A stretch of 28,039 nt of DNA, from IMG/VR virus record IMGVR_UViG_3300044630_003729, positions 1 through 28,039 of that record; one strand, 5' to 3'. The notes below the pieces were generated by a model. That model did no database searches, was not told the DNA's origin, and was given only the letters and a program-made list of their open reading frames with translations. Source of the stretch: a virus. Both the position numbers and the translations under genes were made by a program. How positions within the stretch are numbered: the stretch's first letter is position 1; the number at the start of each line of letters is the position of its first letter. Of this stretch, positions 2,476-24,613 are shown piece after piece.

Positions 2476-3318
2476 ATGTATGACAACAAAAACATTGTGT
2501 GTGTTTGGTACCCCAGCGGAGGATTTGGAAATTTTATCAATGCCACATTGACTTTGCACGGTGTAAATTTTGTTCGTCCAGATAAAACACACTACAAATT
2601 TGGGGGCAATGGCGACAGCCACGATATTGGTTTTACTGCGCCGTTTTTTTGTGTTGATGACTACTTTTTTGATTTTAATTCTTCAGACAAAAATTATGTG
2701 GTGTTGGTTGATAATGGTATTGTCAATGAGTCTAAAAATTTTGCTGACTATTTTCCTAATTCTAAAATAATCAAAGTATCATACAGTCACAAAACTTGGC
2801 CTATTGTGGCATACACTTCCATACACAAAGCTATGAATTCGTCGATCAATATTGAGTTAAAAGTTGATCAAGATTTATGGCCCAATCAGCAGAATTGGTC
2901 ACAGCGAGAAAAATATTTTTTGTTTTTGTGCGAGCATCATTATCGATCAATGTGGAAACCTGAATCAGGATTTTGTAATTTATTGGTCGACGACCTTTTG
3001 GACTATCAAGGGTTTCGCAATCAGCTTGCAGAGTTTGGTATTTTGACAACAGATTTTTCTCAGCTGTGGGACACTTGGTTTAGTGTCAACCAACAGTATA
3101 TTGCCCCAGTTATTTTTGGGCAAAAGGTAATAAATGCTGTGGTTGATCAACAAAGTATGGATTTATCACAATGCAAAGATCTTTGGACTCAGGCAGTGGT
3201 CAATTACATGATCTGGAATCAATTTGGCTGTGTTGTTCCAGCAAATGATTTTGCCGATTGGTTTGTCAACAGTGACCAGATCGTCACGTTGCTGGCGGAA
3301 AACAATGCACTGTATTGA
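2476..3318 (+). CDS. Unknown 280-residue protein with N-terminal glycine-rich loop
   Basis: The ATG at 2476 lies one base after the upstream stop. An in-frame extension back to 2425 would overlap that gene and is not needed. The N terminus, IVCVWYPSGGFGNFINATL, is a beta strand, a glycine-rich loop and a helix, as in P-loop or sulfotransferase-like proteins, but a full Walker A motif (GxxxxGK[ST]) is absent. The rest is rich in aromatic residues (W, F, Y) with no recognisable catalytic motif. The gene is clearly AT-richer than gp47/gp46 (one sampled 60-base line is about 27% GC against about 38% in gp47), which suggests recent acquisition. The next gene overlaps its 3' end by 14 bases. Function unknown; a nucleotide- or sulfonucleotide-binding role is only a guess. 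Confidence 0.6.
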   Translation: MYDNKNIVCVWYPSGGFGNFINATLTLHGVNFVRPDKTHYKFGGNGDSHDIGFTAPFFCVDDYFFDFNSSDKNYVVLVDNGIVNESKNFADYFPNSKIIKVSYSHKTWPIVAYTSIHKAMNSSINIELKVDQDLWPNQQNWSQREKYFLFLCEHHYRSMWKPESGFCNLLVDDLLDYQGFRNQLAEFGILTTDFSQLWDTWFSVNQQYIAPVIFGQKVINAVVDQQSMDLSQCKDLWTQAVVNYMIWNQFGCVVPANDFADWFVNSDQIVTLLAENNALY

Positions 3319-4135
3319 TCGTCTTGACGTTATGATTGCATATTCTTGCAATCTTGCCTGTCGCGGTTGCATCAGTATCAGCGATCAGGTTCGAGACGGG
3401 GTTGAACCTTTTGAAAATCTTGTTGCTGAGCTGGATCGATGGAAAACATTGATTGTTCCCGGGGTAACAGCTATTTTTGGAGGAGAACCTTGTTTACATC
3501 CAAAATTGGTAGAAATATGTCAGCATGTGAGAACTGTCTGGCCTGACACTGTCATAAGACTGATTACCAATGGCTATCTACTGGACAATTTTGATGCCGA
3601 GCACTGGTTCAATCTAGGCAAACTTGAAATTCAAGTGAGTGTACATCGCAAAGATCACGAGCAGGTGTTGAATCAAAAAATAAAAAATATTTTATCTAAA
3701 CGCAAGGCCTGGCGCATCAGTACGCATCAGTCTACTGGGGAACACAAGCAGATGCAATGGCAGTATGACTCAGTTTCTATTTACAAAAGTATCTTTAAAG
3801 AATTTGTAGTTCCTTATCAACAGCACAACAACCAATTGTTGCCCTGGAACAGTGATCCTGTTGAGTCTCATAAAATTTGCGGTGCTGCCAATACTCCTGT
3901 GCTGTACAAAGGTAAATTATACAAGTGCCCTGCGGTGGCCAATGTCATAGACATTACCAAACAAAATTGGTTTAATTATCAGGCAATTGACATAGATGGC
4001 GACCTGGGTGGATTTGTTCAGTCAATAGGAGTTCCTGAACCAGTATGTGGTCAATGTCCCAATCGAGCACAGGCAGTAGTGATTGATCACTTTGATAAAA
4101 AAAATGTTGTTGTCAGACAAAAAAATATTAACTAG
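3305..4135 (+). CDS. Radical SAM enzyme
   Basis: The start is ATG 3305, inside the end of the previous gene, giving 276 residues. It has the radical SAM signature CNLACRGC (C15, C19, C22), whose three cysteines hold the [4Fe-4S] cluster that cleaves S-adenosylmethionine, and a GGEP motif (G59-P62) that contacts SAM. RLITNGYLL is the following conserved beta strand. Further cysteines in the C-terminal half (KIC, YKC, then VCGQC) look like ligands for an auxiliary cluster of the SPASM/twitch type. It is distinct from the two tandem radical SAM genes after gp46, which lack a classic GGEP. Substrate unknown. Gene packing suggests it works with the guanidino-modifying enzyme and the SGNH-like protein. 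QueE- or peptide-modifying-type activities cannot be excluded. Confidence 0.82.
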   Translation: MHCIDRLDVMIAYSCNLACRGCISISDQVRDGVEPFENLVAELDRWKTLIVPGVTAIFGGEPCLHPKLVEICQHVRTVWPDTVIRLITNGYLLDNFDAEHWFNLGKLEIQVSVHRKDHEQVLNQKIKNILSKRKAWRISTHQSTGEHKQMQWQYDSVSIYKSIFKEFVVPYQQHNNQLLPWNSDPVESHKICGAANTPVLYKGKLYKCPAVANVIDITKQNWFNYQAIDIDGDLGGFVQSIGVPEPVCGQCPNRAQAVVIDHFDKKNVVVRQKNIN

Positions 4136-4884: not shown

Positions 4885-6966
4885 TTGATTCAAATTAAAA
4901 AATTAACTGTTCGAAATTTTATGAGCGTGGGCAATGCCACACAAGGCATTGACTTTGATCGTCAAGACCTTACCCTAGTACTGGGCGAAAATCTAGACCT
5001 CGGCGGCGATGGCAGTAGAAACGGCACGGGCAAAACCACAATCATCAATGCTTTGAGTTATGCTCTTTATGGCAATGCTCTTTCAAACATTCGCAAGGAT
5101 AATCTTGTGAACAAAACCAACAACAAGGGCATGTTGGTGGGTCTGGAATTTTCAGCAGGCGGGCACAACTACAGAATCGAACGAGGTCGTAAGCCCAACG
5201 TGTTGAAGTTCTATGTCAATAATGAAGACAAAAGCGTCACAGACGATGCTCAAGGAGACAGTCGCGAAACTCAAGAAGCCATTGAGCGTTTGTTGGGCAT
5301 GAGTCACGACATGTTCAAACATATCTTGGCGTTGAACACTTACACTGAACCGTTTTTGAGTCTGAAAGCCAATGAACAGCGTACCATTATTGAGCAGTTG
5401 TTGGGCATTACTTTGTTGAGTGAACGTGCTGAACGCATTAAAGAACTCAACAAAGCCACCAAGGATGCCATCACCTCAGAAGAGTTTAGAGTACGTGCTG
5501 TGCAAGAAGCCAACAAACGCATTGAAGAACAAGTAGAAAGTCTCAAACGCAGGCAAGTGCTGTGGCAAAAAAAATACGACAGTGATCTTGCTTATCTTGT
5601 GTCACAGTATGACGATTTGGTGGTGGTAGACATCGATGCCGAACTACGTGCTCACCAGGCCTTGGCCATCTGGACCGAACGCAAAAAACAAGCAGACGCC
5701 CGTGTCAAAATGTTGGCGTTTCAAACAGCATGGCAACAAACACAAGCCAAGGAAATTGCTGCTTTGCAAGACAGTTACAACAAACTCAGTCACATTGACA
5801 TTGCCGCTGAACTCAAAGCACACCAAGACTTGGCTGCATACAATCAACGGGCCAAGGACATTGCTGAACTTGAAAAACTCATTGCAAGATGTGTAGCAGA
5901 CGAAGCCCGAGAACTAAAAACTTCTGACAAACTCCGGGCAGAAATTGCTGAACTAGAAGCGCACAAGTGTTATGCCTGTGGTCAAGAGTTTCACGACGGT
6001 GCTCACGAAAGTGTGTTAGAAGCCAAGCGTAAATTGCTACAAGAATCAGCATTGCAATACTTGGCCACCAATGGCCAGTGGATAGAAAACACAGACGCAT
6101 TGTTAAAATTAGGCGAACTGGGCACTCGGCCCACAACACATTATCAAACCGAAGCCGAAGCCATTCGTCACAGCAGTGAAGTAGAAAACGTACAACAAAA
6201 AATTGCAGACAAACAAGCAGAAGTCAATCCTTATGCCGAACACCTGGCTGATACTGTAGCAGAAGACCCAGGAGCAGCACCTGTCACACACTACGATACC
6301 GAAGCCAAAGCAGTCAAACACTCCACCATGGTCAGCAGCTTGTTGCAACAGATCACTAACAAGCATGCAGAAACTGATCCTTATGCTGAACAAATTGTAG
6401 ACATGCAACAAACAGCCATGCAAGAAATCTCATATGAGCAGCTCAATGAACTGGTTCGGGTGCAAGACCATCAGGAGTTCTTGCTCAAATTGTTGACTTC
6501 TAAAGATTCATTTATTCGCAAAAAGATCATTGACCAAAACTTGAGTTATCTCAACAGCAGACTCACACACTACCTGGATCGCATTGGTTTGCCACATACC
6601 GTGACATTCCAAAACGACCTTACGGTGCTGATTGAAGAACTGGGTCGTGAACTAGACTTTGACAATCTCAGCCGCGGTGAACGTAATAGACTGATTCTTT
6701 CTATGAGTTGGGCATTTCGAGATGTGTTTGAAAGCCTGTATCAACCCATCAACTTGTTGTTTATTGACGAACTGATTGATTCGGGTCTAGACACTGCGGG
6801 TATGGAAAGCAGTTTGGCCATTCTCAAACAAATGAGCCGCGAACGCCACAAAAGCGTTTGGCTTGTGAGTCACCGTGATGAGCTAGCAGGACGTGTGGAA
6901 AACATCATGCGAGTGGTCAAAGAAAACGGTTTTACTAGCTACAATACGGATGTAGATCGTGCGTGA
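4885..6966 (+). CDS. gp46: Recombination endonuclease subunit gp46 (Rad50/SbcC-like ATPase)
   Basis: The start is a TTG, supported by GGAG at 4874-4877 seven bases upstream and by the family N terminus (MIQIKKLTVRNFMSVG). Seen: Walker A SRNGTGKTT with K50, a zinc hook CYACG (C362, C365) at the tip of the coiled coil, the ABC signature LSRGERNR (about 595-602), Walker B LLFIDE (D628, E629), and a D-loop/H-loop (SHRDE) near the end. It partners gp47 in end resection. At 693 residues it is longer than T4 gp46 (560). The extra length lies in the coiled coil, where two segments are duplicated (residues ~249/~305 and ~416/~466). The stop overlaps the next gene's GTG start by 8 bases. Confidence 0.95.
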   Translation: MIQIKKLTVRNFMSVGNATQGIDFDRQDLTLVLGENLDLGGDGSRNGTGKTTIINALSYALYGNALSNIRKDNLVNKTNNKGMLVGLEFSAGGHNYRIERGRKPNVLKFYVNNEDKSVTDDAQGDSRETQEAIERLLGMSHDMFKHILALNTYTEPFLSLKANEQRTIIEQLLGITLLSERAERIKELNKATKDAITSEEFRVRAVQEANKRIEEQVESLKRRQVLWQKKYDSDLAYLVSQYDDLVVVDIDAELRAHQALAIWTERKKQADARVKMLAFQTAWQQTQAKEIAALQDSYNKLSHIDIAAELKAHQDLAAYNQRAKDIAELEKLIARCVADEARELKTSDKLRAEIAELEAHKCYACGQEFHDGAHESVLEAKRKLLQESALQYLATNGQWIENTDALLKLGELGTRPTTHYQTEAEAIRHSSEVENVQQKIADKQAEVNPYAEHLADTVAEDPGAAPVTHYDTEAKAVKHSTMVSSLLQQITNKHAETDPYAEQIVDMQQTAMQEISYEQLNELVRVQDHQEFLLKLLTSKDSFIRKKIIDQNLSYLNSRLTHYLDRIGLPHTVTFQNDLTVLIEELGRELDFDNLSRGERNRLILSMSWAFRDVFESLYQPINLLFIDELIDSGLDTAGMESSLAILKQMSRERHKSVWLVSHRDELAGRVENIMRVVKENGFTSYNTDVDRA
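5629..5880 (+). repeat. Diverged duplication in gp46 coiled coil (proximal arm)
   Basis: Residues 249 onward (DIDAELRAHQALA) and 305 onward (DIAAELKAHQDLA) are two copies of the same segment, offset by 56 residues, both followed by a charged helix. This is a protein-level repeat with diverged codons. It lies before the zinc hook, in the ascending arm of the coiled coil. Confidence 0.6.
6130..6408 (+). repeat. Duplicated ~43-residue segment in gp46 coiled coil (distal arm)
   Basis: Residues ~416-458 begin PTTHYQTEAEAIRHSS and residues ~466-508 begin PVTHYDTEAKAVKHST. The copies also share the later pattern NPYAEHLAD / DPYAEQIVD, and the offset is exactly 50 residues (150 bases). The match is uninterrupted at protein level. 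It lies just after the zinc hook, in the descending arm, so both arms carry an internal duplication. Confidence 0.75.
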
Positions 6967-7834
6967 CATAAAAGTACTGCATCTAGAACCAACTGACGTG
7001 TGTCAAGCTGCTTGTTCGTTGTGTCTAAGAGAAACGGACAAAGAATTCAACAAAAATTTGGCTACTCATTTGAGTATGGAACAAATTCTCAATGTATTTG
7101 ATCAAGAAAAAATCAAACAGCTGGACAAAATGTTCATGTGCGGAATTTATGGTGATCCTGCTGCTGGCAAACATACATTAGATATCTATCAAAAATTTAG
7201 ACAAATTAATTCAACTGTCACACTGGGCATGAATACCAACGGAGGGTTGCAAAATCAACAATGGTGGGAGCAACTGGCCAACACATTCAATCAACCTGGG
7301 GATTATGTTGTTTTTAGCATTGACGGTCTTGAAGACACCAATCACATGTATAGAAAAAATGTATCGTGGAAAAAAATAATGCAAAATGTTCAGGCATTTG
7401 TTAATGCAGGTGGATCAGCACACTGGGATATGTTGGTATATCAACACAACGAGCATCAAATTGACCATTGCAAGAATTTGGCCAAAGAAATGAAGTTCAG
7501 TTGGTTTCGTGCAAAGGTAAGCAAGAGACCTTTTATCAACGGGCTAGCAGCTCCGTCGATACTTCCAGTTGATTCGTTGATCACACTCACTGGCAATAAC
7601 AATATCATTGACTGTCATGCACTGATTGAAAAAAGTTTGTATATTGATGCTCGGGGACAAGTTAAACCTTGTTGTTGGTTAGGAGATTACAATACTCATA
7701 TTACGCAACTTGAACAAGTTGCAGTTACCTGGAACACCAACAGCCCGCATCCGGTATGTAAAAAATCTTGTTCAATATCAGGAGCTGGCACAGTGTTTAA
7801 GAATCAATGGCGTGTTGAGGAGCAGCTATGCTAG
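6959..7834 (+). CDS. Radical SAM / SPASM-like enzyme A
   Basis: The start is GTG 6959, overlapping the gp46 stop. The downstream motif CQAACSLC (C15, C19, C22) needs the frame to begin about here. This 291-residue protein has the radical SAM triad, a MCGIYGDPAAG segment in place of GGEP, the block FSIDGLEDTNHMYR, and a C-terminal cysteine-rich region: C219, then YIDARGQVKPCCW (C238, C239), then CKKSC (C267, C271). The CCW and final CxxxC pattern is typical of SPASM-like auxiliary cluster domains in enzymes that modify peptides or carbohydrates. Clear paralogue of the next gene, sharing the FSIDG, YR, YIDARG and CCW blocks at matching places. Substrate unknown. It sits in the gp46 transcription unit, so it is probably expressed early. 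Confidence 0.82.
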   Translation: MRDIKVLHLEPTDVCQAACSLCLRETDKEFNKNLATHLSMEQILNVFDQEKIKQLDKMFMCGIYGDPAAGKHTLDIYQKFRQINSTVTLGMNTNGGLQNQQWWEQLANTFNQPGDYVVFSIDGLEDTNHMYRKNVSWKKIMQNVQAFVNAGGSAHWDMLVYQHNEHQIDHCKNLAKEMKFSWFRAKVSKRPFINGLAAPSILPVDSLITLTGNNNIIDCHALIEKSLYIDARGQVKPCCWLGDYNTHITQLEQVAVTWNTNSPHPVCKKSCSISGAGTVFKNQWRVEEQLC

Positions 7835-8838
7835 CGACCTGGCATTTTCACATTGAAGTTTCCAGCAAATGCACTTTGAAGTGCCCAAGATGTGCTCGTC
7901 AAGAAGTGCCTGATAGTCTTGTGAATACTGAACTAGACTTGGAATTTTTCAAGCGCAATTTCACTCCTGAATTTGTGAAAGCAAATGTAGAAAAGATCAC
8001 ATTCTGTGGCGACGACGGTGATCCCATTTATGCACATGACTTGATCCCTGTGATCCAGTATCTCAAAGATATCAAACCCATTGAGATTGTGATTGTTACC
8101 AATGGTAGTTACAAAAAATTAACGTGGTGGACTGAACTAGGCCAATTGTTGGATGCCAACGACAGTGTGCATTTTAGCATTGACGGTTATGACCATGCCA
8201 GCAACAACTTGTATCGTGTAAACAGTGACTGGGACAGTATCATTGCAGGATTACAAACGTTGCGAACCGCAAGTCCGTGCAAGATAATCTGGGCTGCCAT
8301 TGCATTTAAATTCAACCAAGACCAACTTGACTCTATGCAGAAGTTTGCTCAACACCTGGGAGTTGATCTCTTTCAGTTGACTAAGAGCACAAAGTTTGGC
8401 AGCGTGTATCCGTTGTATGGTCTAGACGACCCACTACAACCCAGTGTTAAATTTGTCAGCAGTTCTCATCGTTTTGAACGAGACTCAGTTGCATTGACTG
8501 GCGCAGGTGCATGGCAAACAATTCCACTGACCAACAAAAAATTATTCAATCAAACCAAAAGTCGTAACGGAGTAACACCGTTATGCGAAATAGGCAACAA
8601 AGGATTGTACATTGATGCCCGGGGCAGATTATTTCCCTGCTGTTGGGTGGCCAATAGATACAATCACAATTCAGACTGGCAGCAAATAGCAGAAAACTTC
8701 AATTTAAACACACGAACACTAACAGACGTACTAGCAGATGATTTTTGGACCACAGAATTTCAGTCGTTTAAATGGCAAGAATGCCAGACCAAATGCCAAA
8801 GTTCATTGGTCGACGAAAAATATGCATGTTTGTGGTAA
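7828..8838 (+). CDS. Radical SAM / SPASM-like enzyme B
   Basis: ATG 7828 overlaps the end of enzyme A by 7 bases, so the two are likely translated together. This 336-residue protein has CTLKCPRC (C15, C19, C22) for the SAM-cleaving cluster, FCGDDGDP replacing GGEP, VTNGS, and HFSIDGYDHASNNLYR. The C-terminal cysteine-rich domain has C253, YIDARGRLFPCCW (C271, C272) and CQTKC (C319, C323). The triad falls at the same residue numbers as in enzyme A, which supports tandem duplication followed by divergence. About 45 extra residues lie between the two domains. The pair may act as a heterodimer or on successive sites of one substrate; that is inference. No precursor peptide gene was recognised beside it. 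Confidence 0.84.
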   Translation: MLATWHFHIEVSSKCTLKCPRCARQEVPDSLVNTELDLEFFKRNFTPEFVKANVEKITFCGDDGDPIYAHDLIPVIQYLKDIKPIEIVIVTNGSYKKLTWWTELGQLLDANDSVHFSIDGYDHASNNLYRVNSDWDSIIAGLQTLRTASPCKIIWAAIAFKFNQDQLDSMQKFAQHLGVDLFQLTKSTKFGSVYPLYGLDDPLQPSVKFVSSSHRFERDSVALTGAGAWQTIPLTNKKLFNQTKSRNGVTPLCEIGNKGLYIDARGRLFPCCWVANRYNHNSDWQQIAENFNLNTRTLTDVLADDFWTTEFQSFKWQECQTKCQSSLVDEKYACLW

Positions 8839-8880: not shown

Positions 8881-9309
8881 ATGACATGGCTTTATCAAGA
8901 CACCCCAGTTGAGACACTGCCCGAAGAATGTGTGGGATTTGTTTATCTAATCACAAATAATCTATCTGGACGCAAGTACATAGGCAAAAAATTAGCAAAA
9001 TTTTCAAAAACAACGTACAAGACAGTAAAACAAAAAAACGGCATCAAAAAGCGGAAAAAGATACGCACCAAGGTCGACTCAGACTGGCGTGAGTACTACG
9101 GGTCAAGCCCAGAATTAACCGCAGACGTAATCACTTTAGGCACCGAAAACTTCTCCAGAGAGATACTCTACTATTGTAAAAGCAAGTCTGAATGTAGTTA
9201 CATTGAGGCCCGAGAACAGTTTGCAAGGCGAGTATTGGAATCAACAGATTATTACAACGGCCATATACAAGTACGTGTACATGGCTCACACATAAAAGAC
9301 AAAATTTAA
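8881..9309 (+). CDS. Small GIY-YIG-like endonuclease
   Basis: This 142-residue protein starts at ATG 8881, with a weak purine-rich site (GAAAGG, 8857-8862) farther upstream than usual. The N-terminal VGFVYLITNNLSGRKYIGKK fits the VY(L/I)...YIG core of GIY-YIG nucleases, the first motif being VYL rather than GIY. A lysine/arginine-rich insert, then SDWREYYGSS and a late glutamate in SYIEAREQF (candidate metal ligand), follow. Similar small proteins are common in T4-like marine phages and are often free-standing (Seg-like) homing or repair nucleases. The gene ends at the border of the long non-coding, group II intron-like region, which makes a link to a mobile element worth testing. Alternatively it is an ordinary phage nuclease of unknown target. 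Confidence 0.62.
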   Translation: MTWLYQDTPVETLPEECVGFVYLITNNLSGRKYIGKKLAKFSKTTYKTVKQKNGIKKRKKIRTKVDSDWREYYGSSPELTADVITLGTENFSREILYYCKSKSECSYIEAREQFARRVLESTDYYNGHIQVRVHGSHIKDKI

Positions 9310-10573: not shown

Positions 10574-11073
10574 TGCCGCGGATCCTGCCTGTGTTGAAAC
10601 AAAGTTTCTAGATACTTTTCGGGCCAAGAGTGATAAAATCCTTTTTGTGCCAGTTGATCTGCTTTGACATTTAGATCACTGAGATTTTGACACATGGACA
10701 ATGCATAGGACCCTTGATTCATGCATACACCGTTTACTATTTCAAGATCGTCAGGATGATCCTCTAGTGCAATCAAGTCAGCTGCCAACAAAAAGTCTTT
10801 GTTGGCTGCTTCAAGTCGCGGAGAAAAAATGTCTCTAGTCCATTCAGTATGATCGTATGCATAAATTACCACCTGAAAGCTGCCTAGTCCTGTGCGACAT
10901 AATTCTTCTAAATCATGATACGGATCTGATCCTATTCTTACAGACACTTGATGATTGAGTCGGGCACGTCGGGCATAGGGACACGGGCTCCAGTTGCCCA
11001 GGGCCGGATGCGGCTGTTCAAGAAAATTTTCTGACCAGGAAAGTATGTCTTGTTTGACTTGTTTGAGTTGCAT
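10570..11073 (-). CDS. Conserved-looking protein with CPYARRAR motif, function unknown
   Basis: This 167-residue protein starts at ATG 11073, which overlaps the previous stop by one base (TGATG). The N-terminal half, ILSWSENFLEQPHPALGNW then CPYARRAR, recalls DUF1415-type proteins, where a CP(F/Y)A motif follows a helix. The remainder has FQVVIYAYDHTEW and a Cys-containing helix (NGVCMNQGSYALSMCQNL) with no known active site. I cannot assign a function. The tight overlap with both neighbours suggests co-translation with the gp26 frame and the GNAT-like gene. Confidence 0.6.
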   Translation of the reverse strand: MQLKQVKQDILSWSENFLEQPHPALGNWSPCPYARRARLNHQVSVRIGSDPYHDLEELCRTGLGSFQVVIYAYDHTEWTRDIFSPRLEAANKDFLLAADLIALEDHPDDLEIVNGVCMNQGSYALSMCQNLSDLNVKADQLAQKGFYHSWPEKYLETLFQHRQDPRQ

Positions 11074-11303
11074 CAAAAGAAAGGTAGTTTACTGTTTTTG
11101 GTAGTTTCAAGATTGTCTTTGATTAGATCACCTATCATTGAGCGTTCTCGAAAACTCATCTGCATGATGTCTTCGTATGTGGCACCGCCTCGCATGTACC
11201 AACTCATCTTTAGACTTTGTTGACGTATTGAATCAGCCTCCTGCTCCATCTGATCAACCATGTCAGAAATTTCTGCTGCGGCCAGCGTCAGGAGGCGTCC
11301 GCG
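11073..11303 (-). CDS. Tail-assembly chaperone extension, reached by -1 frameshift from gp26 (or separate small gene)
   Basis: From the slippery site this frame encodes 76 residues ending MSWYMRGG...DNLETTKNSKLPFF, a C terminus I recognise as common downstream of gp26 in T4-like marine phages. The only upstream ATG (11363) would lie in DNA that encodes the conserved gp26 C terminus in another frame, so I reject it. A separate start would have to be ATG 11261 (62 residues), which has no visible Shine-Dalgarno sequence. The frame is exactly -1 relative to gp26 at TTTTTTC (11309-11303), so a 352-residue fusion is the better reading. By position next to the tape measure gene, it corresponds to the T part of gpG/gpGT-type chaperones. 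That is inference. Confidence 0.6.
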   Translation of the reverse strand, partial: RGRLLTLAAAEISDMVDQMEQEADSIRQQSLKMSWYMRGGATYEDIMQMSFRERSMIGDLIKDNLETTKNSKLPFF

Positions 11304-12130
11304 AAAAAACTTGTTTGATCCATAGTCAACTGTTGACGATAGTTGTGATGACACGAAGGACACTCCATAGCAAGCGGATCAATTTCGCTGTCTTGACGAA
11401 GATTAATAATGTGATTTTTTATAGTATTAAACAACGATCGATCACAATTGTTAATAAACTCGTGAATATGTTCAGGTTCGGTTACCAGTGCATGCGGAGT
11501 ACGAATAGATGCAATGCTCCATTTTAGTGCCTCCATGGTCAACTCTGTGATTTTTTGCAAGCTGTTGTTGAGCTCGGTTATTTTTTCAGCATCGGTTAAA
11601 TCACTGGCCTGTACCACTTGAATTCTTTTTTGTTGTTCAAATTGGTTTTGATTGCTGGTGTTTTGATGTTCGTAAGTCATGGGACGAAACGCAATGGACA
11701 AGTCTCCGTGCTTGATCTCCTGGCGGAAATCGCCACTTTTGAGCTTGTCCAACACTGTTCTTAGATCCAATGAGTAGTCAGAATCTGTACTGCACTCAGG
11801 GCAAGTTGACACAATTTCCATATTGTGACCATAGCTGGCAATTCTGATGGCCACTAGCACAGCATTCAGATCCACTGTGGGCATTTGCCAGGCGTCTATA
11901 ATATTTGGAACACAACTCTGTATCACATTGATCACAGCTTGTCCGTTGTACAACGTGTCAGGAGTACGATATGTGATTTCGTCAATGGCAGTCATTGGAT
12001 AAACTGGAATTTCATTGGTTGCTGGATAGTTTAAACTGCCTGCAGGCCAAAACTCGCCTTGGCTAGGCAATCGCAAATGTATTGCAGGTTGTCTAAAAAA
12101 TTGTTTCAGCGGGTTAACAGATTGGGTCAT
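11288..12130 (-). CDS. gp26: gp26-like baseplate hub / tail-assembly protein
   Basis: This 280-residue protein has the gp26 hallmark near its N terminus: KQFFRQPAIHLRLPSQGEFWPAGSL. Two CxxC pairs, TCPECS (middle) and ECPSCHH (near the end), could bind zinc. In T4, gp26 is needed for baseplate hub assembly. In this position, directly beside the tape measure gene, and with a frameshifted extension, it also resembles the tail-assembly chaperone of other long-tailed phages. The gene is transcribed away from the tape measure gene, sharing a near-palindromic late promoter region. Its 3' end overlaps the next frame, and the stop lies four codons after a slippery site. Confidence 0.8.
   Translation of the reverse strand: MTQSVNPLKQFFRQPAIHLRLPSQGEFWPAGSLNYPATNEIPVYPMTAIDEITYRTPDTLYNGQAVINVIQSCVPNIIDAWQMPTVDLNAVLVAIRIASYGHNMEIVSTCPECSTDSDYSLDLRTVLDKLKSGDFRQEIKHGDLSIAFRPMTYEHQNTSNQNQFEQQKRIQVVQASDLTDAEKITELNNSLQKITELTMEALKWSIASIRTPHALVTEPEHIHEFINNCDRSLFNTIKNHIINLRQDSEIDPLAMECPSCHHNYRQQLTMDQTSFFADAS
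11303..11309 (-). other. -1 programmed frameshift slippery heptamer T TTT TTC
   Basis: Read on the - strand, the gp26 codons AGT TTT TTC GCG contain T-TTT-TTC in the X-XXY-YYZ register. Both Phe codons can re-pair after a one-base slip back. Zero-frame translation stops four codons later (TGA 11290-11288), while the -1 frame continues for 76 codons. GCGG just after the site (11302-11299) can pair with CCGC (11281-11278) as a weak stimulating stem. Confidence 0.65.
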
Positions 12131-12170: not shown

Positions 12171-14969
12171 ATGGCCGACATAAATTTTGAAACTGAACAA
12201 CTTGCAAGGCTGATGGAGCAGGTCAATGCTGAGATGATAGAGTATGGTGAAGTAACCAAGAATACTCAACAAAAAGTATTTGACGCCAACATGAAGGCCA
12301 AGTTTGGTGTTGACAATGCAACCAAAGCCATAACAAAATCAGGCGAAGCAGTGGGGCATTTGGCCAAAGCAGCCACTGAAGCTGCCAAGTCCATGTACGA
12401 CAACAAAAAAGGAGCCAGTGCATTCAACAACAGCGTAGAGCATGCAGGAACTGCTGTACAGCTTTTTGGCGTTGCACTAATGGCTCTGGGCGGCCCCATT
12501 GGTCTTTTGGTAGGCGGCCTGGCCATGCTCACTGGCGGCGTAATCAAACTGGGCAAAACTGTCAACGAGCAGAGTGATGCCATATACAAAGGTTTTCAAG
12601 ATTTATCCAAGTCAGGAGGTGCTGCAGCTGATGGCATGTCTGGTCTATTTGGCGATATTCAAAAACTGGGACTGGGATTTCAAGATCTTGAAGGCTACAC
12701 CAGACTAATTGCTGACAGCAACAAAGAACTGGCCTTGTTTGGCGGCAGCGTAATAAAAGGTCGCAAACAGTTTGCTGACATGGGTCAGGCCATGGCCCCA
12801 TTCCGAGAAAGCCTGTTTAATGCAGGCATGACTCAGGAAGAGATCAACGAAGCCGGTATGGGTTATCTGAAGCTGCAGTCTAGGATTGGTCAATCTCAGA
12901 ACAAAACCGCTGACGAACTGGCCATGGGTGCAAGAAAGTACTTGATCGAGCAAGATGCGCTGACCAAACTCACTGGCCTGACTCGTAAAGAACAAGAAGA
13001 TGCCCGGGAAGAAATACGATCACAGGAACGTTTTGCTGCTACTCTGGCTGAACTGCGAGCCAAAGGGCAACACGACGAAGCTGAATCTCTTGAACAAACT
13101 TTTCTAGTGCTACGCAGTCAGAGCAAAGAAGCTGCACAAGGATTTGCTGATGTGTCTACTGGCATGTTGACCACTGAAGCTGCGCAAAAAAGTTATTTGG
13201 CCACTCAAGGTGAAAGCATGCGAGTGTCCCGGATGATTCAATCAGGACAACTAAGCGCAGCACAAGGTGCACAACTGGTGGCCAAAGCACACGGTCGCAC
13301 AGCAGACGCTATGGCACCACTGGCCAAGATGGGCGTGTACGGACAAACGTTTGGCGACTATGCAGCTGACCTAAGACTCAAAGGCATGGCCGAAGCCGAC
13401 ATTGAAAAGCAGCTGGCCAAGGTCAAAAAAGAACAGATTGAACAGGGTGTTACTGGTAAAAAAGCAGCAGATGCTGAACAGCAAGAGCAAACCAGGCTGA
13501 GAATATCTCAACAACAGACCACACTGGCAATGCAACGAATGGTCAACTATGCAGTTGAACCAGTTACCAGCATAATGGCAGAGTTTGGTAAAGCAGTTGA
13601 ATCAGCTACTATAAAGCTAAACCAGCTGGTTAATTTCTTTGGCATTGGCGGCCCTGCTAAAGAAAAAACTGAACTAGAAAAAGATGCCAAAGCCGCTGCC
13701 GATCTCAGAGAAAAACGAGATCGCGAAGTAAAAGACCTAGAAGTAAAAGTAATCACAGCCAAAAGCGAGTACGATAAACAACTACTGGCAGAACAACTCA
13801 AAATAGCCAAACAGCGGCAAACAGATGCGTTGCAAGCAGAAAAACAGGCCAAAACAGCCTTGTCTGGCGGTGCAACTGGTAAACCAAGCTCATTGGACAA
13901 AGCTGCACCAGGCATGATGATGGGCAGCAAATTAGGCATGCTCATGGGACAAAGCCTGGCAAAAAAATTGTTTGGCAAAACAGAAAGTCAAAAAACTCCG
14001 CCAGGTGGTCCCGGTGCCCCGTCTGAATCCGAAGGTGCCAAGTCTAAATCTGGAAAATCAGCCGCTGACCTACTAGACTTTACTGGCCTGTCAGGCAGTG
14101 TTGGTGCATTTGACGGGCTGGATGCTCGAGTCAAAGATGCTGTGTTGGCAGCAGCCGAAGATTATCTTTCTGTTACAGGAAAAAAACTTCAGATCAACAG
14201 TGCTGCAAGATCAGCTGAAGATCAGAAAAGATTATGGAATGAAACAGTGGCAGCTGGACGTCCAGGACGTGGTCCAAACGGTTATCCTGTTGCTAGACCA
14301 GGCTCAAGTCCGCACGAAAAAGGGCTTGCAGTTGATATACAAAACTATCTTGATCCTGCTGCAGTATCAGCATTAAACAATCAAGGGCTTCGACAAAAAG
14401 TAGCAGGCGATCCACCGCATTTTTCTTTTGGCGACGGAGGAATTGCATCAGGGCCCACAACAGGATATCCTGCCGAACTACACGGAACCGAAGCAGTAAT
14501 ACCTCTAAAAAATGGTCGTGTGCCGGTCAGTTTAGACATAAAAAGCATGGGCTCAAAAAATACAGATCAAGCGGCCATCAAAGATCTCACTGCAAAACTC
14601 AACACCAACAACAATGTAACCAAAAAAATTATTGATCCTACCACTTGGAAAGACATTTTGAATTCAGGAGTGTCCATGAACTACAACATGAGCATTGCAG
14701 AAATCACTTCCAAAATGATTCCAGAAATTGGTAAAGAAATTGGACAACAAATCCAAGAAATTAAATCCACAAACGATTCAACTTCTTCTATTGCTCAAAT
14801 GGCAGCTGAGTTCAAGAATGTCATGCTAGACGCAGTAAAAACTATCAATACCAGCAATACCAATTCAGCAGCACAGGACACACAGTTGTCCTTGTTGAGC
14901 CAGCTGGTCAAAGAACAACAAAACAGCAATGACCTACAGAAGAAGTTGTTACAGGTAGCAGCCAACTAA
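12171..14969 (+). CDS. Tape-measure-like tail protein with M15 peptidase domain
   Basis: At 932 residues this is the largest protein here. Seen: an N-terminal helical part, a hydrophobic stretch at about residues 97-127 (GVALMALGGPIGLLVGGLAM inside it), long Ala/Gln/Lys-rich helices with coiled-coil character (about 280-560), then a Gly/Ser/Pro linker. A peptidase M15 (VanY/endolysin-type) domain follows at about 645-755: AARS (R680), SPHEKGLAVDI with zinc ligands H715 and D722, and DPPHFSF with H750. After it comes YPAELHGTEAVIPL, a short motif often found near the end of tape measure proteins. I infer a tail-length ruler carrying a cell-wall-cutting activity for DNA entry. Functional counterpart of T4 gp29, though I see no gp29-specific motif. 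Confidence 0.72.
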   Translation: MADINFETEQLARLMEQVNAEMIEYGEVTKNTQQKVFDANMKAKFGVDNATKAITKSGEAVGHLAKAATEAAKSMYDNKKGASAFNNSVEHAGTAVQLFGVALMALGGPIGLLVGGLAMLTGGVIKLGKTVNEQSDAIYKGFQDLSKSGGAAADGMSGLFGDIQKLGLGFQDLEGYTRLIADSNKELALFGGSVIKGRKQFADMGQAMAPFRESLFNAGMTQEEINEAGMGYLKLQSRIGQSQNKTADELAMGARKYLIEQDALTKLTGLTRKEQEDAREEIRSQERFAATLAELRAKGQHDEAESLEQTFLVLRSQSKEAAQGFADVSTGMLTTEAAQKSYLATQGESMRVSRMIQSGQLSAAQGAQLVAKAHGRTADAMAPLAKMGVYGQTFGDYAADLRLKGMAEADIEKQLAKVKKEQIEQGVTGKKAADAEQQEQTRLRISQQQTTLAMQRMVNYAVEPVTSIMAEFGKAVESATIKLNQLVNFFGIGGPAKEKTELEKDAKAAADLREKRDREVKDLEVKVITAKSEYDKQLLAEQLKIAKQRQTDALQAEKQAKTALSGGATGKPSSLDKAAPGMMMGSKLGMLMGQSLAKKLFGKTESQKTPPGGPGAPSESEGAKSKSGKSAADLLDFTGLSGSVGAFDGLDARVKDAVLAAAEDYLSVTGKKLQINSAARSAEDQKRLWNETVAAGRPGRGPNGYPVARPGSSPHEKGLAVDIQNYLDPAAVSALNNQGLRQKVAGDPPHFSFGDGGIASGPTTGYPAELHGTEAVIPLKNGRVPVSLDIKSMGSKNTDQAAIKDLTAKLNTNNNVTKKIIDPTTWKDILNSGVSMNYNMSIAEITSKMIPEIGKEIGQQIQEIKSTNDSTSSIAQMAAEFKNVMLDAVKTINTSNTNSAAQDTQLSLLSQLVKEQQNSNDLQKKLLQVAAN

Positions 14970-23326: not shown

Positions 23327-24475
23327 TTAAACTTTGAACCACGATAGATATTGAGCAATTTTTTTAGTGACTGTGTTCCAATCTCCACGACTGGGTTGCC
23401 TGAACAGTCTAGCAGTTGAGTACCAAGGGCTAGAATCTCGATCAGTCAGCCAACGCCAATCAGTGGCATAAGCATTGAGCATGATCCAAGTGGGTCGGCC
23501 CAGGGCTCCGGCCAAATGACTCACTGCTGTATCTACTCCTACTACCACATCCAGGTTCTGCATTAGTGCTGCAGTATCAGCAAAGTTGTGAACACTACCA
23601 GGATATCGAGTTACCCCTGCGGCTGCCAATTCAGCTTCTTGCTGGTCTGAGGCATCCACTTGTAGATTGATCCATTCGTATTCGGGTGTGGATTTTATCA
23701 GTTCAAGCATGGTTGCAAAAGGCACTGACTTGTGTTGATTCAACCATGAATCTGGACGACCGCTCCAACAGAACCCCACCCTCATGCGAGTCTTTGGTCC
23801 TAGTTTCAGTTGCCACTGTCGTACTGCAGCAGTATCAGCATTGAGATAACTCTGAACTCGAGGCAAAGTATCCAAAGTGATACCCAAGATGCCTGGAATG
23901 CTCATGATAGGAACCCAGTAGTCAAATTCGCCCATGTCGTCGGTATACCTGCCCACTTGACTAATAACACCGCCTAGACTCAGCAGCGGCACTAGACCGT
24001 CGGTGACTTGTAGTTTAACTTGAGCACCTTGCGTATGTAGATTCCAAAGAAAACGCACAAACTGAATATTATCCCCGTGGCCTTGTTCGCCCACTACCAA
24101 GATAGTACGACCCTGTAGATTTTCGCCGCGCCAACGAGGTTGTACAAATTTAGGCTCTGTTCCGGCCAAATGTTCATATTCCCATCGAGACTCGTAGGCA
24201 GGCCATCCCTGTGCGTAATCACCTTTCAGCAGATAGGTCACAGCTAGATTAAATTTTGTGGTAATGTTTTTTGGATCCAACACAGCCGCATGCTGTAAAA
24301 ACGGTATAGCTCTAGCAGGATGACCCAGTTCTCGCATGACATTGCCATAGTTGTTGAAAGCAGCAGCACAATCAGGGTCTGTCACAAATGCCTGTGCATA
24401 GCAAGCCAAGGCTTGTTCAGGGTCTTGCTGTGCTCTTAGTTGATTGCCTTGTTCTATTAGATCGTTTGAGTTCAT
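23327..24475 (-). CDS. TPR-containing glycosyltransferase (GT9/GT41-like)
   Basis: The start is ATG 24475 (382 residues, MNSNDLIEQGNQLRAQ); an extension to 24535 adds a non-family N terminus and crosses the promoter boxes. Residues ~5-95 hold about three TPR repeats (ALACYAQAFVTDPDCAAAFNNYG is of this type, split across repeats). A C-terminal glycosyltransferase region follows: VGEQGHGDNIQFVRFL, GFCWSGRPDSW, and DVVVGVDTAVSHLAGALG then PTWIML, matching the nucleotide-sugar site of heptosyltransferase/O-GlcNAc-transferase-like enzymes. Lone - strand gene amid structural genes. Possibly glycosylates a virion protein such as the fibre-like neighbours, or host surface sugars; that is inference. 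Confidence 0.78.
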   Translation of the reverse strand: MNSNDLIEQGNQLRAQQDPEQALACYAQAFVTDPDCAAAFNNYGNVMRELGHPARAIPFLQHAAVLDPKNITTKFNLAVTYLLKGDYAQGWPAYESRWEYEHLAGTEPKFVQPRWRGENLQGRTILVVGEQGHGDNIQFVRFLWNLHTQGAQVKLQVTDGLVPLLSLGGVISQVGRYTDDMGEFDYWVPIMSIPGILGITLDTLPRVQSYLNADTAAVRQWQLKLGPKTRMRVGFCWSGRPDSWLNQHKSVPFATMLELIKSTPEYEWINLQVDASDQQEAELAAAGVTRYPGSVHNFADTAALMQNLDVVVGVDTAVSHLAGALGRPTWIMLNAYATDWRWLTDRDSSPWYSTARLFRQPSRGDWNTVTKKIAQYLSWFKV

Positions 24476-24479
24476 GCAG

Positions 24480-24487
24480 TATTTAAT
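24480..24487 (-). promoter_or_regulatory. Late-promoter-like ATTAAATA before the glycosyltransferase
   Basis: TAAATA core on the - strand ending 4 bases before ATG 24475, with no ribosome site between. The score against TATAAATA is modest, but the placement repeats that of other late genes here. Confidence 0.4.
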
Positions 24488-24515
24488 AGGCCTGGGACAC
24501 AGTTGAGACTTTTTT

Positions 24516-24613
24516 GCTAAATACACTGTCCGCAATAGTGCGGCTTATGCTGAGCTTAACACCCACAGCGTAGCAGCTAGAACCTGCATCGGACTTCTTT
24601 AAGGAGAAACAAA
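24516..24613 (+). promoter_or_regulatory. Late-promoter-like GCTAAATA and structured leader
   Basis: GCTAAATA (24516-24523) starts a leader of about 85 bases. It contains a small stem CCGCA-ATAG-TGCGG (24530-24543) right at the expected transcript start and ends in AAGGAG (24601-24606) before ATG 24614. A stem at the 5' end may stabilise the mRNA of the following structural gene. Confidence 0.5.

Follow-up and report, generated by a model that had tools for sequence, protein, structure and literature searches.

Among long-tailed phages with their G/GT frameshift, T4 was named as the exception in a 2016 review (PMC5009743). A 2010 review (PMC3004832) counts its proteins gp26 and gp51 among the hub assembly chaperones; it describes gp51, which is essential yet missing from the virion, as a protein "of unknown function". 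According to two citing papers (PMC12846349, PMC10274946), Vladimirov, Gautam and Davidson identified the tail-assembly chaperones of T4-like phages in 2022 (Virology 566:9-15); the same papers relate that poly-T slip signals are known in the TAC-N genes of such phages and that a short gene and a fused long gene occur together in some T4-like phages. On our own reading of these citing papers, the chaperone genes in question are 26 (TAC-N) and 51 (TAC-NC), and, as they relate it, the frameshift/two-gene principle for T4-like phages is already published.

Here we analyzed gene 26 of a T4-related virus in a window of 28,039 nt, by which we mean the whole stretch of DNA studied (positions 1 to 28,039 of IMG/VR record IMGVR_UViG_3300044630_003729). 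A preliminary description of this DNA had proposed a tail chaperone of the gpG/gpGT type, made in two forms by a programmed -1 frameshift. The features relevant to this proposal are as follows.

11288 to 12130, minus strand: gene 26, zero-frame product of 280 aa (PF12322, E=3.4e-16; phrog_150 "baseplate hub", E=5e-20).
11288 to 11290, minus strand: TGA stop codon of the gp26 zero frame (read from the sequence).
11303 to 11309, minus strand: slippery heptamer T_TTT_TTC in the gp26 frame (read from the sequence; kept in 143/143 single-copy gp26 3′ ends as TTTTTT(C/T/G)).
11076 to 11303, minus strand: -1 frame extension of 76 codons (RGRLLTL...KLPFF), T-like domain of a predicted 352-aa fusion (29-member alignment; AlphaFold2 model).
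11073 to 11075, minus strand: stop codon of the -1 extension (read from the sequence).
11289 to 11296, minus strand: 5′ arm of the predicted stimulatory stem (GCCTCCTG), 6 nt past the heptamer (p=0.007 versus dinucleotide shuffles).
11236 to 11243, minus strand: 3′ arm of this stem (CAGGAGGC), across a 45-nt loop (84.6% of cells paired in 34 sequences; covariation score reached by 0/500 shuffles).
12171 to 14969, plus strand: divergent neighbor, large structural protein of 932 aa (VanY peptidase domain PF02557, E=6e-7, residues 667 to 728).

The assignment of the gene to the T4 gp26 family is given by the PF12322 profile, which scores 60 bits against a gathering cut-off of 24.5. Its AlphaFold2 model (pLDDT 86) has a T4-like baseplate hub assembly protein as top Foldseek match (TM 0.90), while searches of the PDB with the models of gp26 and of the extension matched no solved structure, and sequence searches with both against solved structures returned nothing convincing. 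Within the clade alignment, two CxxC pairs (C110/C113 and C257/C260) are invariant. The 280-aa zero-frame product would represent the short, TAC-N (gpG-like) form of the putative chaperone.

As to its surroundings, the divergent 932-aa neighbor is probably the tape measure protein, judging from position and size; in RaK2, a structural protein at the same position is noted as similar to tape measure protein. Upstream of gp26, Pfam searches show three radical-SAM genes (3224 to 4135, 6959 to 7834 and 7828 to 8838, plus strand) among recombination genes (metallophosphatase, AAA_23/SMC-like). A SegE-like GIY-YIG endonuclease at 8881 to 9309 (plus strand; PF19835, E=7e-33) is likely a homing endonuclease. 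Farther along, a single protein encoded among structural genes at 23327 to 24535 (minus strand) combines TPR repeats with a short glycosyltransferase-9-like match.

Gene 26 ends with AGT TTT TTC GCG GAC GCC TCC TGA. As proposed, TTTTTTC thus stands in the exact X_XXY_YYZ register of gp26, four codons ahead of the stop, and the -1 reading ...SFF|RGRLLTL...KLPFF adds 76 residues to the preceding 276, for a predicted product of 352 aa. The main ORFs of the window, with 8570 codon positions in all, contain 37 in-frame XXXYYYZ strings, and there is a single in-frame TTTTTTC, the one at the gp26 slip site. Such a heptamer would be suggestive in one sequence alone; it is the comparison with relatives that settles the observation, which at the level of sequence we regard as confirmed. 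The -1 frame proved to be coding-constrained right up to the heptamer in an alignment of 29 members, with FFR, LL, W37, R40, G41, R56, N66 and PFF invariant, and the AlphaFold2 model of the extension is all-helical (pLDDT 87). Note that the stop codon of the extension overlaps the ATG of the next gene (TGATG, 11073 to 11076, minus strand), an arrangement which suggests that this gene may be translationally coupled to the frameshifted reading frame.

Retention of the heptamer and its register in related gp26 genes was the check that the preliminary description had named for itself. Scanning IMG/VR with both gp26 and the extension as queries yielded 95 loci. The junction is covered in 93 of them, and each of the 93 shows TTTTTTC and, in the -1 frame, the tail. 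A script was used to check nearly all, one (L072, whose contig starts inside gp26) was checked by eye, and L005 ends before the junction. An automatic survey had scored L040 and L072 as lacking the heptamer; both contigs begin inside gp26, and TTTTTTC is present on direct reading. An additional T run flagged by the automatic scan in L043 has no relation to gp26 and was excluded.

With added scans using the P-SSM2 and 121Q gp26 proteins, the collection grew to 143 distinct 3′ ends, all from gp26 genes present in single copy and all placed in alignment with three reference genes; all 143, which as counts are phylogenetically non-independent, carry T_TTT_TT(C/T/G), with C in 137, T in 5 and G in 1. 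The -1 domain measures 58 to 82 aa from the slip. The codon ahead of TTT ends in T in every case, although eight different codons are used (AGT 100, AAT 17, GCT 13, CAT 4, GAT 4, TCT 3, CGT 1 and TAT 1). Isolates with the slip site include the jumbo phages Atu_ph07, Phosso, SCTP-2, PA5oct, RaK2, 121Q, CBB, XacN1, Vibrio 2.275 and CM1; S-PM2, P-SSM2 and HTVC008M of the Kyanoviridae, one of them a pelagiphage; KVP40 and Aeh1 of the Straboviridae; and Cr30, phiM12, phiM9 and phiW-14, so that phages of Caulobacter, Sinorhizobium and Delftia are covered. The site was also found at three loci in bacterial genome bins, which are probably viral contigs.

A stimulatory element at slip-site spacing is usual, though not obligatory, for slips of the gpG/gpGT type, and a candidate stem was found here, modest as the window's own example is (8 bp, with an overall fold that is not unusual, z -1.2). 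Across 23 representatives, 17 have a stem at 3- to 9-nt spacing with p<0.05 versus dinucleotide shuffles, and the same test gave no significant stem in the other 6. Pair counting revealed compensatory changes in two alignments, with scores reached by 0/500 shuffles and above those of slid controls; in several members of the window clade (L006, L022, L051 and L053), the pairing is broken. The stems themselves differ: a second clade has GGCTTTTGA/TCAAAAGCC with a longer loop, and we found GGCTCTTTGT/ACAAAGAGCC in Atu_ph07, CCATCAAGTCC/GGACTTGATGG in XacN1 and AGTATGGCTCA/TGAGTCATACT in P-SSM2. RNA folding is markedly stable in four relatives (z -3.7 to -6.3). The cyanophages have an 11-bp hairpin of their own, which includes a CTC/GAG to CGC/GCG change, and in addition show GGAGGG or a close variant ∼9 nt upstream of the slip site. 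An upstream Shine-Dalgarno (SD)-like element ahead of a slip site is an arrangement known from E. coli dnaX.

The preliminary description was not aware of such a slip having been described for T4 gp26. T4's own gp26 has no slip site; it is the single-copy relatives that keep it. T4, RB43, RB49, Acj9, CP220 and a T4-like IMG/VR genome (G001) each have two PF12322 genes, none with a slip site, and one of the two copies runs in frame into a segment resembling the -1 extension. Conversely, a single copy is present in each of the 18 slip-bearing isolates that PF12322 scores; SCTP-2 falls below the profile threshold. Slip site and second PF12322 gene are mutually exclusive in this sample.

In hhalign, the C-terminus of gp51 matches the extensions that cyanophages, KVP40, Aeh1 and other phages encode in the -1 frame (probability 96.7%, E=3.5e-10), and the KVP40 record had already noted the similarity of its small ORF to the gp51 C-terminus. 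By these sequence comparisons, T4 gp26 and gp51 are paralogous, with gp51 carrying the same extension fused in frame and its C-terminus homologous to the -1 domain found in cyanophages and in further T4-like phages that have a single copy. T4 gp51 may thus be the long form of gp26. Cyanophage-type extensions also match phrog_634 (baseplate hub assembly catalyst; E=2e-29). The extension of the window clade gave no match to phrogs and is related more weakly, at 62% and 39% probability to the cyanophage and T4 extensions, respectively; the former value was obtained with jumbo-phage intermediates and drops to 2% for the window clade alone. We infer that it is homologous to the cyanophage extension. 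The window's gp26 is linked to gp51 because both match PF12322; a direct profile link between the gp26 body of the window clade and gp51 was rejected, as this comparison aligned the zinc motif alone.

Might the extension instead be a separate small gene, translated from its own start or by termination-reinitiation into a free protein, with the heptamer incidental? It is annotated in this way in S-PM2 and KVP40 (as "gp51" in both), Phosso and Atu_ph07, and Phosso, Atu_ph07 and cyanophages have an ATG in the -1 frame that closely follows the stop or overlaps it. Because this ATG overlaps the gp26 stop in Atu_ph07 and Phosso, coupled re-initiation of the extension is possible in these two phages. 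As a general explanation we nevertheless consider a separate gene improbable. The conserved FFR.RLL residues precede any downstream start, constraint on the heptamer extends to a synonymous position, the stem stands at slip-site spacing, and T4-type phages have the domain covalently fused. Moreover, in no member of the window clade did we find the domain containing MSWYMRGG in a different register behind a good ribosome site. The preliminary description had gone further in saying that the extension has no convincing start. Possible starts do exist at several -1 positions (the mechanical ORF begins with GTG at 11363), but across 62 clade members no start codon combines conservation with a preceding SD-like motif, and an own start for the extension was rejected on this result.

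A different objection would be that TTTTTTC is maintained by amino-acid constraint on the C-terminal Phe-Phe alone, making the -1 ORF an overlap without slippage. The pair near the gp26 C-terminus (F275 and F276) is invariant across the window clade, and T4-type gp26 likewise ends in ..EFFELL in the absence of a slip site. Codon usage speaks strongly against this: T_TTT_TTY, which covers both Phe codons and the third base ahead of them, is present in 78/78 slip sites, compared to 6/54 internal Phe-Phe pairs of the same genes, and phiM9, which has TTT TTG (Phe-Leu), still keeps the T run. Given also that the -1 frame is constrained as coding sequence right to the heptamer, we attach very little weight to this explanation. 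Just as implausible is transcriptional slippage as the source of long and short forms, since although RNA polymerase could slip on a six-T run, such slippage usually requires longer runs, the X_XXY_YYZ register is exact in every member, and both the downstream stem (3- to 9-nt spacing) and the upstream SD-like element of cyanophages are ribosomal stimulators.

We consider it very likely that gp26 is a tail-assembly chaperone of a T4-superfamily phage whose two forms arise from one gene by a -1 slip. Three observations support the G/GT reading: the product is predicted in a short and an extended form, its gene sits next to a large structural gene that looks tape-measure-like, and T4 has the pair as two genes; the chaperone activity of gp26 and of its slipped form is putative. 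We infer slippage in gp26, and its rate, within the following model. Most ribosomes would terminate at the TGA (11288), and the 280-aa product would result. With tRNA-Phe in the P and A sites on T_TTT_TTC, a minority would move back by one base, aided by the stem that begins 6 nt downstream, and would terminate 76 codons on, yielding as a minor product the 352-aa form with its helical C-terminal domain. On the model of lambda gpG/gpGT, coating of the tape-measure protein would fall to the short form and recruitment of tube subunits at the hub to the extended one; both would be dispensable in the finished virion. T4 would reach the same pair without a slip, through gp26 as the short form and its paralogue gp51 as the long one.

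Three groups outside the 143 3′ ends depart from this arrangement. In the Ackermannviridae (ten IMG/VR junctions plus Vi01), the extension overlaps in the -1 frame at an invariant GAR-ATT-TTC-ATY-TAA junction that has no tandem slippery heptamer. After the gp26 stop, RM378 and PAU carry a domain that resembles the extension but lies in the +1 frame. In PAU, this domain is preceded by AAGGAG and ATGATG, and it may be a free gene or be reached by a +1 or -2 shift. We put forward, as an evenly balanced proposition, that the -1 slip is ancestral to the chaperone pair of the T4 superfamily, that its stimulatory RNA turned over repeatedly around a near-invariant T_TTT_TTC, and that the slip was lost more than once: by duplication and in-frame fusion (T4 and other Straboviridae; Campylobacter CP220), in favor of a non-canonical site (Ackermannviridae), or in favor of a +1-frame or independent start (RM378, PAU).

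How does this locus compare with described chaperone systems? The slippery sequence of lambda gpG/gpGT is GGGAAAG, rather than the TTTTTTC of gp26. There is no detectable sequence relation between the two systems, the CxxC pairs being a feature of gp26, and the models of gp26 and its extension found no match in the PDB among solved chaperones of the gpG/gpGT type. The putative tape-measure gene is divergent beside the window's gp26 but lies downstream in lambda. By analogy, gp26 and its slipped form would behave like gpG and gpGT (Levin 1993; Xu, Hendrix and Duda 2004). In 0305phi8-36, which belongs to a different lineage, gp143 and gp144 provide short and long forms from paralogous genes, as do gp26 and gp51 in T4, and no frameshift was found there (PMC2147016). 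Adele, of the Vandenendeviridae, resembles our locus in having a T-rich -1 slip at the TAC-N 3′ end and a conserved -1 frame; it differs in phage family and in its motif, GTTTTT instead of the full T_TTT_TTC, and the passages of the paper available to us report no stem covariation (PMC12846349).

Many genomes miss the extension or annotate it as a separate gene. The near-universal presence of the slip site in single-copy relatives, jumbo phages included, together with covarying stems, agrees with the 2022 identification of Vladimirov and colleagues, with which, as the citing papers describe it, our data share the short and extended T4-like chaperones, the poly-T slip and the two-gene forms. 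Possibly new here are the stimulatory RNA, the breadth across jumbo phages, and the exceptions in Ackermannviridae, RM378 and PAU. The swap from a slipping gp26 to a separate gp51 offers a natural test of whether slipping must set the isoform ratio.
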